NCBI RefSeq assembly: GCF_037201915.1 | Contig: NZ_CP147505.1 | Coordinates: 372,001 to 436,000 of the forward strand | Reading direction: 5' to 3' | Source: Haloplanus sp. CK5-1 | GTDB lineage: Archaea > Halobacteriota > Halobacteria > Halobacteriales > Haloferacaceae | DNA length: 64,000 bases | In this document: in pieces, positions 41,757 through 48,672 of the stretch | Numbering within the stretch: the stretch's first letter is position 1 | Layout: every line of letters begins with the position of its first letter | Position numbers and translations under genes: made by a program | The notes under the pieces: model-generated | Database searches by the model: none | What the model was told of the DNA's origin: nothing | What the model saw: the letters and a program-made list of their open reading frames with translations, nothing else

Positions 41757-41849
41757 CCCCCCGTCCGTCGAAGTCGACATTCTCATATTCCTCCACTCCT
41801 CAGCCCCGTGCATGGACACGATCGATCGCGACCCACGGGAGGCGCGGGC

Positions 41850-42536
41850 GTGAGCAACGCACTCGGCCCCCTGTCGCGGCTTCGCCGCCTCCCGGACATG
41901 GCCGCAGTCCGGTGGTGGTGTCTCGTCGTCGCGGCCGAACTCGCGGTCGTGACTGCGTACATCGACCTCACCGGCACCATCGTCACCCAACCGCGGTACG
42001 TCGTCTACCCGTTCGTCTGGATCAACGTCGGCGTGTGGGCGATGCTCCGGACGGGGACGCCGAGCGTCGACCGCCGACAGTGGGCGTTCGCGACGGCGAT
42101 GGCCGGCGGGTATCTCCTCCTCCTCTTCGTCGCCGGCGGCACGCTCCAGTTCGGGATCGGTGGGCCGCTCAACGGCGGTGCGGTCGCCTCGATTCACTGG
42201 AACATCCCCGGACTGGGACCGATCGTCGTCTACGGCACGCCGCGGGTTCGGCTGTCGGTCATCCCGTTCAAGGTCGTCGGCTACGTGGCGATGACCTACC
42301 TCGTCTACGCTCGCCTCCTCGACGCGACGCGAGCGGTCCTCTCCGGTGTGTTGGGGCTGTTCTCCTGTGTCGGCTGTGCCTTCTCGCTGCTGCTCCCCTT
42401 GCTCGGCGCGACGACGCTGTTCGGGTCGACGCTCACCGGCCTCGCGTGGGACCTCTCGACGCTCGTGTTCGTCCTCACCGTCGCCCTCCTCTACTGGGCC
42501 GACGAGGTGGGGGCCGCCGTCTCGCGTCGCCTCTAG
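41850..42536 (+). CDS. Haloarchaeal membrane protein (DUF7546-like)
   Basis: 228 aa with six or seven membrane helices and a CxxC (LFSCVGCAFSLLLPLLG) at the membrane. GTG 41850 has a GGGAGG site 8 nt upstream and is the likely start; a 13-codon ORF from ATG 41812 ends in GTGA over this start. Family function unknown; the CVGC pair might be redox active or bind metal. The stop interlocks with the convergent gene at CTAG 42533-42536. Confidence 0.75.
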   Translation: MSNALGPLSRLRRLPDMAAVRWWCLVVAAELAVVTAYIDLTGTIVTQPRYVVYPFVWINVGVWAMLRTGTPSVDRRQWAFATAMAGGYLLLLFVAGGTLQFGIGGPLNGGAVASIHWNIPGLGPIVVYGTPRVRLSVIPFKVVGYVAMTYLVYARLLDATRAVLSGVLGLFSCVGCAFSLLLPLLGATTLFGSTLTGLAWDLSTLVFVLTVALLYWADEVGAAVSRRL

Positions 42537-43129
42537 AACTCCCCACGGAGTCGGTCGTCCGCCGCTTCGGTTTCGACGACGTCGACCCCAAGCGACTCGT
42601 AGAAGGGGCGGACCCCGGGGTCGAACTCGGCGACGAGGCGGTCCCGGTCCTCGGCGGCCCGCGACACGAGGGCGGTGCCGACCCCGCGGTCGCGCCACCG
42701 GCGGCGCGTCGCCACCGCGGTGATGCGGTCGCCGTCGCGGACGAGCGCGCCGACGACGCTCCCGTCGACGGTCGCCACCAGGACGCTCCCCGCTCCGATC
42801 CGCGCACGAACCGCCGTCGCGTCGGCGTCGAGTACCGCGCCGTCGACGATTCGCATCACGTCGAGGTGGTCGTCGGCGGTGGCCGGCCGGACTCGGATGC
42901 GGTCGGCCACGGCGTCGCCGGTCGACGCGCCCCCCTTGACGAGTCGGAGGATACGGACCCTGCCGGCGTCGACGTCGTCGTCCTCGGGGACCGGCGTCCC
43001 GTCGACGAGGACGGCTGCCTCGTGGGGGCTAAAGGACAGTTCCGCCAGCAGGTCGCCGTACGTGGCGCCGTCGTCGAGACGCAGTTCCCGCTCACCCTCG
43101 CCGACCACCTCGACGCGTACCGTCTGCAT
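42533..43129 (-). CDS. SAMP2-like ubiquitin-fold domain fused to GNAT acetyltransferase
   Basis: 198 aa. Residues 1-67 match the archaeal modifier SAMP2: [35 protein letters not shown] and the closing LRLVKGG, whose Gly66-Gly67 would be the C-terminus in the free modifier. Here the frame continues without a stop into a GNAT domain (77-190) with acetyl-CoA loop RDRGVGTA at 146-153 and PFYESLG near the end. SAMP2 is used for conjugation and tRNA thiolation and needs a free Gly-Gly, so processing or loss of that role is implied. Confidence 0.85.
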
Positions 43130-43193
43130 GGACCGACGGAGGGACGCGGCGGTCCTGAACCTTCGGATCCCCGACCACCCCGGTCGACGCTCG

Positions 43194-43889
43194 CTACGCC
43201 TCCGGCGCGTCGATCCCGAGTTCGTCGAGGAGCGTCCGGGCGGCCAGCGCCGACGACTCCGGGCCGCGTGCGGTAACCAGGTCGCCGTCGACCGTGACCG
43301 ACCGGTCGGATCCGAGGTCGGCGTCCCACTCCGCGCCCGCGGCCGTCACCTCGTCCTCGACCCAGTACGGCAGTTTCCGGCCGTCGGGCATCAGGTCCCG
43401 GTCGTCGACGATACCTTCCTCCCAGGCGTTGGGGAAGCCGGTGACGCGACGCCCGGCGACGAGGAAGTCGCCCTCCCCGTCGCGGGTGAAGGCGAGGAGG
43501 CCGACGGCGTGACAGACGACCAGTGCCGTGCCGTCCGTCCCCTCGACGGCGTCGCGCAACAGCGCCCGGGCGTGTCGGTCCTGGTTCACGTCCCACTCGG
43601 TGCCGTGGCCGCCGGGGAACACGACGGCGTCGTAGTCGGCGGCGTCCACCTCGGTCACGCTCACGGGGTCGTCGAGTCTCGGGTCGGTCTCGTGAACCTC
43701 CCGGACGCGGTCGGCAGTCTCCCTGCCGACGTTCGCCGGGTCGACCGACCGCTCGTCGATCACCGGCCGCCCGCCGGTGGGCGTGGCGACGGTGACCTCC
43801 ACCCCCGCGTCGCCGAGCGTGGTCAACGGCTCGGTACACTCTTCCCCCCAGTACCCCTCTTCGCTGACGACGAACAGTGCGGATGGCAT
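43194..43889 (-). CDS. DJ-1/PfpI superfamily protein (Hsp31-like)
   Basis: 231 aa. The nucleophile elbow is VVCHAVG with Cys126-His127, and a Glu is near GYWGEE at the N-terminus, matching the Hsp31/YajL-like type-1 glutamine-amidotransferase-fold proteins, which act as glyoxalase or deglycase/chaperone. [14 protein letters not shown] is the second signature. Start ATG 43889. Confidence 0.88.
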
Positions 43890-44003
43890 ACGCGCCGGCG
43901 TACGGCCGTGACGCGTAAATGCGTTCCCGACCCACCCCGTCCCGCCCCGGCCGTCGCGCCCCGTCTCGGGGAGTTTATGTGGCGACCGACCCCTCGGTAC
44001 GGT

Positions 44004-47000
44004 ATGAGCGAGGCCGACGGGTCGGGGCCGGGACGGGAGATTTGGATCGAGAAGTACCGCCCGGAGACCCTCGACGACGTGAAAGGACAGGACGACATCG
44101 TCGACCGCCTGTCGAGTTACATCGAGCGCGACGACCTGCCGCACCTCCTTTTTTCGGGGCCGGCGGGCATCGGGAAGTGCGTGACGGGCGAGTCGCCGGT
44201 GGTGACGAACCGAGGCGTCGAACGGATCGGCGATGTGGTCGGGGGTACGGATGGATTCGCCACTCCCGACGACGGCTTGGAGGTACTGACGTTCGACGAC
44301 GGCTCGTTCGGGTACGCCGAACCCTCACACGTCTTCGGGAAGGACGCGGACGACCTCGTCCGCGTCACGACCCGGGACGGAAACGAGATGACCGTGACAC
44401 CGGAACACGAACTACTGACGGTCGGGCGAGACGGGTTGGAGTGGGTTCCCGCACGTGACCTCGACGCCGGTTCGCGAGTCGTTCGGCCCCGACACGCGTC
44501 GCTCCCGGATGGTGACGGCCGACTGGACTGGCTCGACGCCATGGACGGCGACCGAACGTTCGTCCACGTCACCGAGGAGTTCGCGGCGACGCACGGGATC
44601 CCGGCCGAGAAGAACTACGTCGGCAAGAAACGGCGCGTGGTCGCCGGACTCCGACGCGGCGAGTCGACGGCCGCTATCGCGGACGCGGCCGATACGACGG
44701 AGAAAACGGTCCAGTCGTATCGCCGTTCGCTCGACGCGTCGCTACACGAACCGAGCACTACGTGTTCACTGTCGTATCTTCGGGGACTGGACGCCGCCGA
44801 CGAGGCGTTGCGGACCCACGTCACCGAGATCCAGTACGTCAACCGCAACAATCAGCGGTCGGAGCCGATCTCGCCGCCGTGGGAACTCACCCCGGAACTG
44901 GCTGCGTTCGTCGGACTGACGGTGAGCGAGGCTCGACTCGACGGCGGTCGGGTGAAGTTCTACAACACCGACGACGGCTTGCTCGACCGATTCGACACCA
45001 CCGCACGGTCGACGTTCGACGTCGAACCTCGACGGGGTGTTCAGAGCGACGTTCCGTACCGGGAGGTCTGTAACCGGACGTTGACGCACTTCTTGGAGGC
45101 TTGTTTCGACGTCGTCGACGAGACGTCCGGCGCCGGCTCCACGCTCGTTCGTGCCGACGAGGCGAGCAGGGCGGCGTTCCTTCGAGCCGTCTTCGATGCC
45201 GAGGGCCACGTCACCGAGCAGGGGGTCGTCGAGTTGACACAAAAAGACGGTAGCCTCATCACGCTACTCTCGTACTTGCTCGCTGGGTTCGGCGTTCCGA
45301 GCCGTCGGAAGCGAGTGGAGAACGCGGCGACCAACGGTTCAGACGAAGAACGGGAGTACCACGCACTCTACGTCTCCAGTTCCCGCCATCTCGAAGCGTT
45401 CGCCGAACACGTCGGATTCAGTATCGACCGGAAATCGGCCCGACTCGCGGCTAACGCCGACCGAGACTCGAATCCGAACGACGACACGATTCCAACACAG
45501 GATGCGGTCGAAACGCTCTGTGAGTCGCTCTATCTGCGGAAGACGGATCACATTCCGGATTCCCTCGACGCCACCTCGCCGGGCCGAGAACGGTACCTCG
45601 ACTGTCTCGATAGCCTTCTCGACGCCGCGGAGACACGGCTCGACGAAGCGGAGCGGGCACTCGAGTGGATCGACGAACTCGGCTCCGACCTCGAGGCGGT
45701 TACGGCCGTCCCCGCAACGTGGGTCGGGACGCGTGACGAACTGGAGCCCATCGAGACGCGTCGCATCCTCTCCGAGCAGGTAGGGGTTCGATCAGACCGT
45801 CTCCTCGAATACGCCGACGGACGGCGAACTCCCGCGAGCGAGCGTGCGGTCGATCTGCTCGACCGGCTCGGGGAACACGACGCCGGCGTCGATATCGAAC
45901 CCGTTCGAACGGCGCTCGATGAGATCATCGAGGGCCTGAACGTTCCGTACGCTCGCGTCGCGGACGGAACCGAGATGCGTGGGACTGACGTGCAGAACCT
46001 CCTGGACGGTGGCAACGACCTCGGGTCACTCCCCCGGTTCCGAACCGTCGCGGACCGCGTCCGATCCATCGCGACCGGGATGCTCTCCGAGGACGTACTC
46101 GAAGATCTCACGACGTTACACACCCTCACGAGCGGTGACCTCTACTTCGACGAGGTCGAGTCGGTCGAACCGATCGACGGGACGCGTCGCGTCTACGACC
46201 TCACCGTTCCCGAGACGCGCAACTACGTCGCCGGACGGGTGCCGACGGTGATGCACAACACAACCTGCGCCACGGCCATCGCCCGCGAGGTGTACGGCGA
46301 CGACTGGCGGGGGAACTTCCTCGAACTCAACGCCTCGGACCAGCGCGGCATCGACGTGGTGCGCGACCGGATCAAGAACTTCGCGCGCTCCTCCTTTGGC
46401 GGGTTCGACTACCGGATCATCTTCCTCGACGAGGCCGACTCACTCACAGATGCGGCTCAGTCAGCGCTCCGCCGAACGATGGAGCAGTTCGCCGACAACA
46501 CCCGCTTTATCCTCTCGTGTAACTACTCCAGTCGGATCATCGACCCGATCCAGTCCCGGTGTGCGGTCTTTCGCTTCTCGCCGCTCCCGGACGACGCCGT
46601 CGGAGCACAGGTCCGCGAGATCGCCGCCGCCGAGGGGATCGACGTGACCGACGCCGGTCTCGACGCCCTGGTGTACGCCGCCGGGGGCGACATGCGGCGT
46701 GCGATCAACACGCTCCAAGCGGCGGCGACGACCGGCGAGACGGTCGACGAGGAGGCCGTCTACACCGTCACCTCGACGGTCCGCCCGGAGAAGATCGAGT
46801 CCATGATCGAGGCGGCCATCGACGGCGACTTCCCGCGGGCGCGGTCGACCCTGGAGACGCTCCTCGTGGATTCGGGGATGGCCGGCGGCGACGTGATCGA
46901 CCAACTCCACCGGTCGGCCTGGGAGTTCGACCTCGACGACCGGCGGACGGTCCGTCTGATGGAGCGGTTGGGCGAGGCCGACTACCGCATCACCGAGGGT

Positions 47001-47057
47001 GCCAACGAGCAGGTGCAACTGGAGGCGATGCTGGCGGCGCTGGCCCTAGAGGAGTAG
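44004..47057 (+). CDS. rfcS: Replication factor C small subunit containing an intein
   Basis: 1017-aa precursor. Exteins 1-58 and 753-1017 make a 323-aa AAA+ clamp-loader subunit: [18 protein letters not shown], Walker A GPAGIGK joined to TTCATAIAR, Walker [11 protein letters not shown] and arginine finger SRCAVFRF. The intein sits in the Walker A loop, directly after the P-loop lysine, so unspliced protein cannot bind ATP. RFC loads PCNA (pcn at 21 kb) onto DNA. The real start is [10 protein letters not shown] (44004). Confidence 0.95.
44178..46259 (+). mobile_element. Intein in rfcS with LAGLIDADG-type endonuclease region
   Basis: 694 residues from Cys (CVTGESPVV, block A) to VPTVMHN (block G), followed by Thr. 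Block B is VTPEHELLT and block F is [17 protein letters not shown]. The endonuclease part shows [11 protein letters not shown], a DOD-1-like motif with altered acidic/glycine residues, and an intact [15 protein letters not shown]-2. An HTH-like segment ([23 protein letters not shown]) lies in the N-terminal half. Length, over twice a mini-intein, fits a full homing element. Confidence 0.93.
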
Positions 47058-47175: not shown

Positions 47176-48672
47176 ATGGCGGAGTTCAAGATCTCGGAGC
47201 GAGAGCGGGGGCAGGTAAACGGGGACCGCCTCACCGAGCGGATCGGCATCGACGAGGGCGAGATCAACTGGCGGAAGGACTTCACCCAGTTCGACGGGGA
47301 CGACGAGCGGACGGTGGCGGACCTCTCGGACGTGTTCGACGACATCGCCGACGACCTCGTCGAGGAGTTCTACGGCCACATTCAGTCGTACTCGCAGTCG
47401 GTTTCGATCCTCGACTCGTCGTCGAAGTCGGTCGAGGCGCTGAAGCGGAGTCAGGCCGAGTACCTGCGGGATCTGGGGCGCGGGGAGTACGGACAGGACT
47501 ACTTCAGCAGGCGGGCACGGATCGGGAAGATCCACGACATGCTCGATCTCGGGCCCAAGATCTACCTCGGCGCGTACTCGGTGTACTACGAGGGGATCCT
47601 CGAGGCCATCGCCGAGGACGTCAAACGCGACGCGGTCGGTGCCGGAGCGGACGGGACAGGGACCGCCGTCGACGACGCCGTCGATGAGGTCGTCGATCGG
47701 GCGCTCTCGGTGCTCAAACTCATCAACCTCGACCAGCAGGTCGCGATGGACACCTACATCCACTCGTACAGCCAGCGGATCGAGTCCGAGTTGGACCGCC
47801 AGCAGACTGTCGCCCGGACGATCGAATCGTCGGTGGACGAACTCCGCGACGCCTCCGAGGAGGTGGCGACGAGTTCCGGGGAGATCAGCGACATCACGGC
47901 GGACCAGGCCGACAGTATGGCGGAGATCTCGACCGAGATATCCAACCTCAGCGCGACGGTCGAGGAGGTGGCGTCGACGGCGAACCAGGTCGCGGAGACA
48001 AGCGCCCGCGCGGAGGATCTCGCCGTCGAGGGCAAGGAATCCGCCGAAGAGGCGATGGACGTGATGGACGACGTGGGGGAGGCCGCCGACGGCGTCACCG
48101 ACGACGTCGAACGTCTCCAGACGCGCATCGACGAGATCGACGAGATCGTCGACGTGATCAACGACATCGCGAACCAGACCAACATCCTCGCGCTCAACGC
48201 CTCGATCGAGGCCGCCAGAGCGGGCGAGGCGGGCGAGGGGTTCGCCGTCGTCGCCGACGAGGTCAAGAGCCTCGCCGAGGAGTCCCAGCGACAGGCCGGG
48301 CGGATCGAGGAGATGATCGACGAGATCCAGACCGACACGGCGGACACCGTCGACAGCCTCGAAACGACGACTGAGCGGATCGACGTCGGCGTCGAGCGGG
48401 TCGAATCCTCGATGGACAAACTGGACGACATCGCCGACGCCGTCACCGAGACGTCGAGCGGTATCTCGGAGGTGGCCGACGCGGCCGACGATCAGGCCGC
48501 AAGCACCGAAGAACTCGCGTCGATGATCGATCAGGCCAGTTCGCAGGCCGCCCGAATCGAGAGCGAGATCGACGACGTCGCGACCGCCAATCGGGAGCAA
48601 GTGGAGGGACTCGACGGCATCGCCGACACCGTCCGGGAGTTGACGGCGGCGGACGACGACTCCCTCGTGTAG
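47176..48672 (+). CDS. hemAT: HemAT globin-coupled aerotaxis transducer
   Basis: 498 aa. Residues 40-195 are a protoglobin-like sensor with the proximal haem histidine at about 120 ([13 protein letters not shown]). No membrane helices. Then a coiled-coil chemoreceptor domain whose hairpin tip is [29 protein letters not shown], the CheA/CheW contact. Signals oxygen to the archaellum motor. Possible methylation sites lie in the Glu-rich helices around 215-260 and 430-470. Confidence 0.95.

Follow-up and report, generated by a model that had tools for sequence, protein, structure and literature searches.

In the haloarchaeal genus Haloplanus, SAMP2 is fused in frame to a GNAT acetyltransferase and is probably made as a precursor

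INTRODUCTION

SAMPs are generally depicted as proteins that end in Gly-Gly and are ready for use. Maturation of a ubiquitin-like protein (Ubl) upstream of its use has long been seen as eukaryotic, as for ubiquitin, SUMO, and NEDD8, and lately also as a property of the ubiquitin of Caldiarchaeum.

Ubl precursors and Ubl-enzyme fusions cut by JAMM proteases are kinds already known. Linear MoaD-MoaE and SAMP1-MoaE fusions are found in bacteria and Crenarchaeota and have been engineered in H. volcanii, in which HvJAMM1 cuts the linear SAMP1-MoaE fusion in vivo and requires Gly-Gly to cleave linear fusions (PMC4443979). By contrast, an in vitro result cited in PMC8832034 is that HvJAMM1 does not require Gly-Gly in linear fusions and, going by that citation, published work on this point disagrees. 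Strains of H. volcanii deleted for jamm1 and assays of SAMP fusions in this species have been published. MoaD-MoaE is cut by DRJAMM (PMC8832034), while CsJAMM cuts SAMP precursors and CsRpn11 cuts CsUb-pre (PMC6043591). In Halobacteria, the arCOG00535-arCOG04721 neighbourhood, i.e., SAMP2 next to a GNAT, was tabulated in 2010 by Makarova and Koonin (PMC2948915).

Here, we analyze a gene of Haloplanus sp. CK5-1 in which these two proteins share one reading frame. It lies in a stretch of 64,000 nucleotides (contig NZ_CP147505.1, positions 372,001 to 436,000), which we refer to as the window and to which all coordinates apply. A preliminary description of this DNA listed three outcomes for the fusion, i.e., cleavage in the manner of a ubiquitin precursor, delivery of the acetyltransferase as a fused partner, or retirement of the modifier, and ranked it as the best candidate in the window for an undescribed system.

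RESULTS

Architecture of the SAMP2-GNAT fusion

The preliminary description gave the correct coordinates for an in-frame SAMP2-GNAT open reading frame (ORF) but not its strand, which is minus (Table 1). The plus-strand reading of 42533-43129 is open as well, yet we rejected it because both domains sit on the minus strand. In profile searches, the SAMP2 equivalog NF041919 scored 100.2 bits over residues 3-67 (cut-off, 70) and PF21965 scored 91.2 bits (cut-off, 27), and the domain matched the solved structures of H. volcanii SAMP2 (2L32, E 1.8e-18; 4HRS, E 5e-18). It closes with LRLVKGG at residue 67, as the preliminary description had recognized. The assignment of the second half to GNAT holds equally: PF13673 and PF13508 exceeded their gathering scores, with their best stretches inside residues 106-192, and the acetyl-CoA loop R146-x-x-G149-x-G151 is intact, with R146, G149, G151, and A153 invariant in 12 Haloplanus species.

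Table 1. Positions of the SAMP2-GNAT fusion gene and its parts in the window, and loci at which SAMP2 is fused to a peroxiredoxin-like domain
Feature	Position or loci	Strand	Basis or genomes
SAMP2-GNAT fusion ORF, 198 aa (stop TAG, 42533-42535)	42533..43129	(-)	ORF and sequence
SAMP2 beta-grasp ubiquitin-like domain, residues 1-67	42929..43129	(-)	NF041919, PF21965, 2L32/4HRS matches
Gly66-Gly67; JAMM predicted to cut after Gly67	42929..42934	(-)	Invariance in 12/12 species
Linker, residues 68-77 (10 residues)	42899..42928	(-)	Alignment, model pLDDT
GNAT acetyltransferase domain, residues 78-198	42536..42898	(-)	PF13673, PF13508, structure matches
Acetyl-CoA loop RDRGVGTA, residues 146-153	42671..42694	(-)	Sequence, conservation
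Promoter-like element GAASSTTCAGG	43154..43164	(-)	Upstream sequences of 12 species
SAMP2-AhpC/TSA fusion loci	L121, L122, L128, L123, L145-L149, L152, L159, L160		G025, G031, G022, G051, others

The encoded Gly-Gly is not at the end of the chain; rather, 131 residues lie downstream of Gly67, and processing is therefore needed before adenylation. K65 is the sole lysine of the entire fusion protein of the window. Because it is in the SAMP2 half, the GNAT half offers no lysine on which it could be sampylated, which rules out that the GNAT is a lysine target of its own SAMP2. An AlphaFold2 model built from 12 sequences has two folded domains, and its pLDDT falls below 50 solely at residues 65-72, i.e., from Lys-Gly-Gly into the first residues of the linker; the junction is thus predicted to be flexible and disordered. 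The best structural neighbours of the model are GNATs, led by the protein N-terminal acetyltransferases NatC and Ard1, and this likeness in fold weakly suggests that the GNAT half may be a protein acetyltransferase.

In all 12 Haloplanus species, the element GAASSTTCAGG is located 25-35 nt 5' of the ATG, and we infer that it is a leaderless haloarchaeal promoter. A scan for sigma-70 promoters and terminators gave no match, as expected of an archaeon. A gene for a DUF7546 membrane protein (window 41808-42536, plus strand) is convergent with the fusion gene, and the two stop codons overlap (42533-42536). Also on the plus strand are a gene for the small subunit of replication factor C (window 43875-47057), which is split by a LAGLIDADG-containing intein and adjoins a DJ-1/PfpI gene and the SAMP2 locus, and a gene that joins a protoglobin domain to an MCP signalling domain in a HemAT-like architecture (window 47176-48672).

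Conservation of the fusion in Haloplanus

The SAMP2-GNAT frame is uninterrupted in all 12 Haloplanus genomes examined, and this rules out a sequencing error or the loss of a stop codon in a single assembly. In particular, none of the 12 has a stop codon at residue 68, a possibility that the preliminary description had raised against the fusion. K65-G66-G67 is invariant and there are no replacements at the Gly codons; across the 12 species, Gly66 is encoded by four different codons (GGG, GGC, GGT, and GGA) and Gly67 by three. Accordingly, both residues are held while their codons drift synonymously. Taken alone, this invariance would also fit a structural hinge. Mean identity among the 12 species is 77% in the SAMP2 half versus 70% in the GNAT half, and mean dN/dS is 0.31 versus 0.37, indicating that the SAMP2 half is constrained at least as strongly as the GNAT half.

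The linker after Gly67 varies from 5 to 15 residues and cannot be aligned across the genus. One rival idea is that translation also initiates internally in the linker to give a separate GNAT, with the fused form as a by-product. The sequence AAG-GGN-GGN that encodes Lys-Gly-Gly resembles a ribosome-binding sequence, some linkers contain in-frame GTG codons, and the linker of a fusion outside the genus (G142) contains a Met. However, no in-frame start is conserved, with position and type varying among the 12 species, and three of the genomes (G002, G003, and G010) have their first in-frame start at least 20 codons downstream of Gly67, where the GNAT fold has already begun. Moreover, internal initiation cannot free the C-terminus of SAMP2, and processing would still be required. 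We therefore regard this explanation as very unlikely.

A single SAMP2 and an intact sampylation pathway

Of 391 haloarchaeal genomes sampled, 381 have a SAMP2 match above the cut-off of the family. The eight Haloplanus genomes in this sample have exactly one match each, namely, the fusion, and a profile search of the window's own genome found no second SAMP2. Other ThiS/MoaD-like proteins that we read as candidates for a separate intact SAMP2 are of the MoaD type with FPPV[SA]GG ends. The preliminary description had proposed a survey of haloarchaea for the fusion and for a separate SAMP2, with a second intact copy and loss of Gly66-Gly67 as the outcome that would count against it; neither was seen, and the fusion was present in 12/12 Haloplanus genomes and in two genomes outside the genus (G142 and G047). 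In this class with near-universal SAMP2, three genomes of one genus (g6; G016, G331, and G334; 89-99% complete) lack a match. Another genome, G284, has two matches of equal score near opposite contig ends (G284:C1:3326-3541 and 3939603-3939818), which represent either genuine duplication or overlap in the assembly.

All 12 Haloplanus genomes encode a UbaA-type E1 and the thiolation enzyme family TIGR00269 (NcsA). Two JAMM paralogues are present in 11 of the 12 and one in a 79%-complete MAG; both paralogues have the HSHP..S..D metalloprotease motif (read in two species), and one matches Pyrococcus JAMM1 in sequence (5LDA, E 1.4e-8). JAMM1 is widespread, and its presence is therefore only weakly diagnostic of cleavage of the fusion.

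These data bear on whether the SAMP2 domain has been retired as a modifier, i.e., is a relic N-terminal extension of the GNAT. As encoded, its C-terminus is blocked, and in the alignment it has Arg at position 59 versus Lys58 in H. volcanii SAMP2, both of which a relic would explain. However, the SAMP2 half is under purifying selection no weaker than that on the GNAT half, K-G-G is invariant despite synonymous turnover, and UbaA and NcsA are kept with no replacement SAMP2. A blocked, useless SAMP2 would strip UbaA, NcsA, and JAMM of their substrate. Thus, sequence comparison largely refutes this reading, and we consider it scarcely credible.

Origin of the fusion from adjacent genes

In most of the haloarchaea examined, a GNAT gene follows samp2 on the same strand, often within tens of bases. 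In the 146 loci in which both could be placed, 132 have separate genes on the same strand and 14 have a single ORF. In many of the pairs, the two genes are in the same frame with one stop codon between them, so that a fusion requires only the loss of that stop. This comparison shows stop-codon loss in an ancestral samp2-GNAT pair to be the origin of the Haloplanus fusion. SAMP2-GNAT fusions have arisen independently about three times, i.e., in Haloplanus, in G142 (another genus of the same family), and in G047 (another family); their tree needs three changes, and its well-supported branches force at least two. A single origin is ruled out, as G142 clusters with G024, an unfused member of its own genus.

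Other fusions and tails after Gly-Gly

GNAT is not the only partner. An AhpC/TSA peroxiredoxin-like domain follows SAMP2 within one reading frame in 12 of the genomes sampled, which belong to four genera (Table 1). Based on the tree, these fusions have about three independent origins, and they arise where an AhpC/TSA gene follows samp2. One of the genera (g41) also holds an unfused member (G294). JAMM is present in all 14 fusion genomes outside Haloplanus.

Many further SAMP2 genes encode short tails of 1-24 residues. Gly-Gly is kept in all SAMP2s of 174 haloarchaeal genomes. Of these proteins, 120 end at Gly-Gly and 54 have residues after it, as either 1-25 additional residues (28) or long fusions (26); because some loci were drawn from fusion searches, this set is enriched for fusions. 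In 97 SAMP2 loci selected by genus when their tails had yet to be read, 74 end at Gly-Gly, 18 have short tails, and 5 are long fusions (~24% with residues after Gly-Gly). Encoded residues beyond Gly-Gly are not unusual in the SAMP2 family.

Tails are also found on other SAMPs. In 11/12 Haloplanus genomes, VSGG of the SAMP1-type protein is followed by 1-6 residues (L287-L298, L306, and L301, which include loci of other genomes), and a minority of 18 other haloarchaea read have a tail on this protein; SAMP1 of H. volcanii likewise terminates in VSGG (PMC4443979). The tail is a single residue in a third SAMP-like protein, which has it in 10/12 Haloplanus genomes. Thus, Haloplanus needs C-terminal trimming in any case, and an activity that removes tails must exist there if the tailed SAMPs are to work. 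In the 99%-complete genome G030 (L313 and L107), which has no JAMM1-type match, SAMP1 and SAMP2 both end exactly at Gly-Gly; this is one anecdotal case consistent with tails needing JAMM1. In G048 (L302), the SAMP1-type frame continues for >120 low-complexity, Arg/Pro-rich residues past Gly-Gly, which could reflect a tail, the loss of a stop codon, or a fault in the assembly.

The main rival to a precursor is a fusion that stays wholly or largely intact, with SAMP2 serving to dock or regulate the GNAT by recruiting it to partners that bind SAMPs (UbaA, JAMM, Cdc48, or the proteasome) and with Gly-Gly as a hinge or recognition motif. Such a role would fit the genus-wide fixation of the in-frame fusion and the wide conservation of GNAT as a neighbour of SAMP2, which suggests a functional link (PMC2948915). 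However, it leaves the genome without free SAMP2 although NcsA and UbaA are retained, and a functional hinge would not be expected to vary in length and sequence as this linker does. Elsewhere, SAMP2 is joined to an unrelated peroxiredoxin, and in many other genomes it has unconserved tails of 1-11 residues; SAMP1 is tailed as well. We therefore find a lasting intact fusion unlikely.

DISCUSSION

Because the fusion is the only SAMP2 and its Gly-Gly is strictly conserved, Haloplanus most likely synthesizes SAMP2 as a precursor from which a protease must release it. By precedent and constraint, we think it probable that the fusion is a SAMP2 pro-protein resembling a ubiquitin precursor and that a JAMM1-type desampylase cleaves it behind Gly67. 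According to this model, the stop of samp2 was lost in the Haloplanus ancestor, placing SAMP2 and GNAT in one chain. The JAMM1-type zinc desampylase retained in the genome would cleave after Gly67 and free mature SAMP2 with the Gly-Gly needed for adenylation by UbaA, thiocarboxylation, and sampylation; the same cut would yield the free GNAT enzyme in a 1:1 ratio with SAMP2. Tolerance of the fusion, we suggest, comes from a desampylase that may recognize the SAMP body and C-terminus whatever comes after. Such indifference to downstream residues would be the probable cause of the repeated acquisition of tails or partners by SAMP2 and SAMP1 without loss of Gly-Gly. Among the three outcomes in the preliminary description, the cleaved precursor is thus the best supported, while retirement of the modifier is at odds with the invariance of Lys-Gly-Gly, the single SAMP2, and the intact set of E1, NcsA, and JAMM.

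More tentatively, haloarchaea may have a precursor economy in which a constitutive JAMM trims SAMPs past Gly-Gly, SAMP genes repeatedly run into their neighbours, and each cleavage frees both the tag and a functionally linked enzyme, so that tagging is tied to acetylation or redox defence. This is a possibility, though a doubtful one. If it is true, these would be the first natural fusions of SAMP2 of the ubiquitin-precursor type. If many haloarchaea make SAMP2 or SAMP1 with tails or enzymes after Gly-Gly, a maturation step also belongs to the SAMP system, and JAMM of Haloplanus would be needed to make SAMP2 at all, besides recycling it. The recurrent partners point to the SAMP2-linked acetyltransferase, long noted and unexplained, and to the peroxiredoxin-like protein as functional associates.

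To call this an undescribed system, as the preliminary description did, is an overstatement, since the gene neighbourhood (PMC2948915) and JAMM-cut SAMP fusions (PMC4443979) are on record; the fusion itself was not found described. In the literature searched, which was thin in subscription journals, so that absence from it is not proof, we found no account of a natural SAMP2-enzyme fusion that alone supplies the modifier, of such a fusion arising repeatedly with two different partners, or of SAMP tails being widespread among haloarchaea.

The fusion shares with eukaryotic ubiquitin precursors, i.e., ubiquitin-ribosomal protein fusions and polyubiquitin, a ubiquitin fold with Gly-Gly at the N-terminus of a longer chain. 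It differs from them in that SAMP2 is an archaeal protein of the ThiS/Urm1 type that works with no E2 or E3, its partner is an acetyltransferase or a peroxiredoxin, the likely protease is a JAMM, and, in Haloplanus, the fusion is the only source of the modifier. In MoaD-MoaE and SAMP1-MoaE, as in SAMP2-GNAT, a beta-grasp Gly-Gly protein is N-terminal to an enzyme, and the protein is inactive until cut by a JAMM, as we predict for SAMP2-GNAT; unlike in MoaD-MoaE, the modifier is SAMP2 rather than MoaD, and the partner is a GNAT, which is neither MoaE nor an enzyme using the modifier's sulfur. CsUb-pre and the SAMP precursors of Caldiarchaeum (PMC6043591) are likewise archaeal Ubls with residues past Gly-Gly that are trimmed by JAMM, a step predicted for SAMP2-GNAT; however, CsUb belongs to another Ubl family and has only a nine-residue tail, whereas a folded enzyme follows Gly-Gly in SAMP2-GNAT. 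Finally, the arCOG00535-arCOG04721 pair (PMC2948915) consists of the same two genes, adjacent and separate there and in one frame in Haloplanus.
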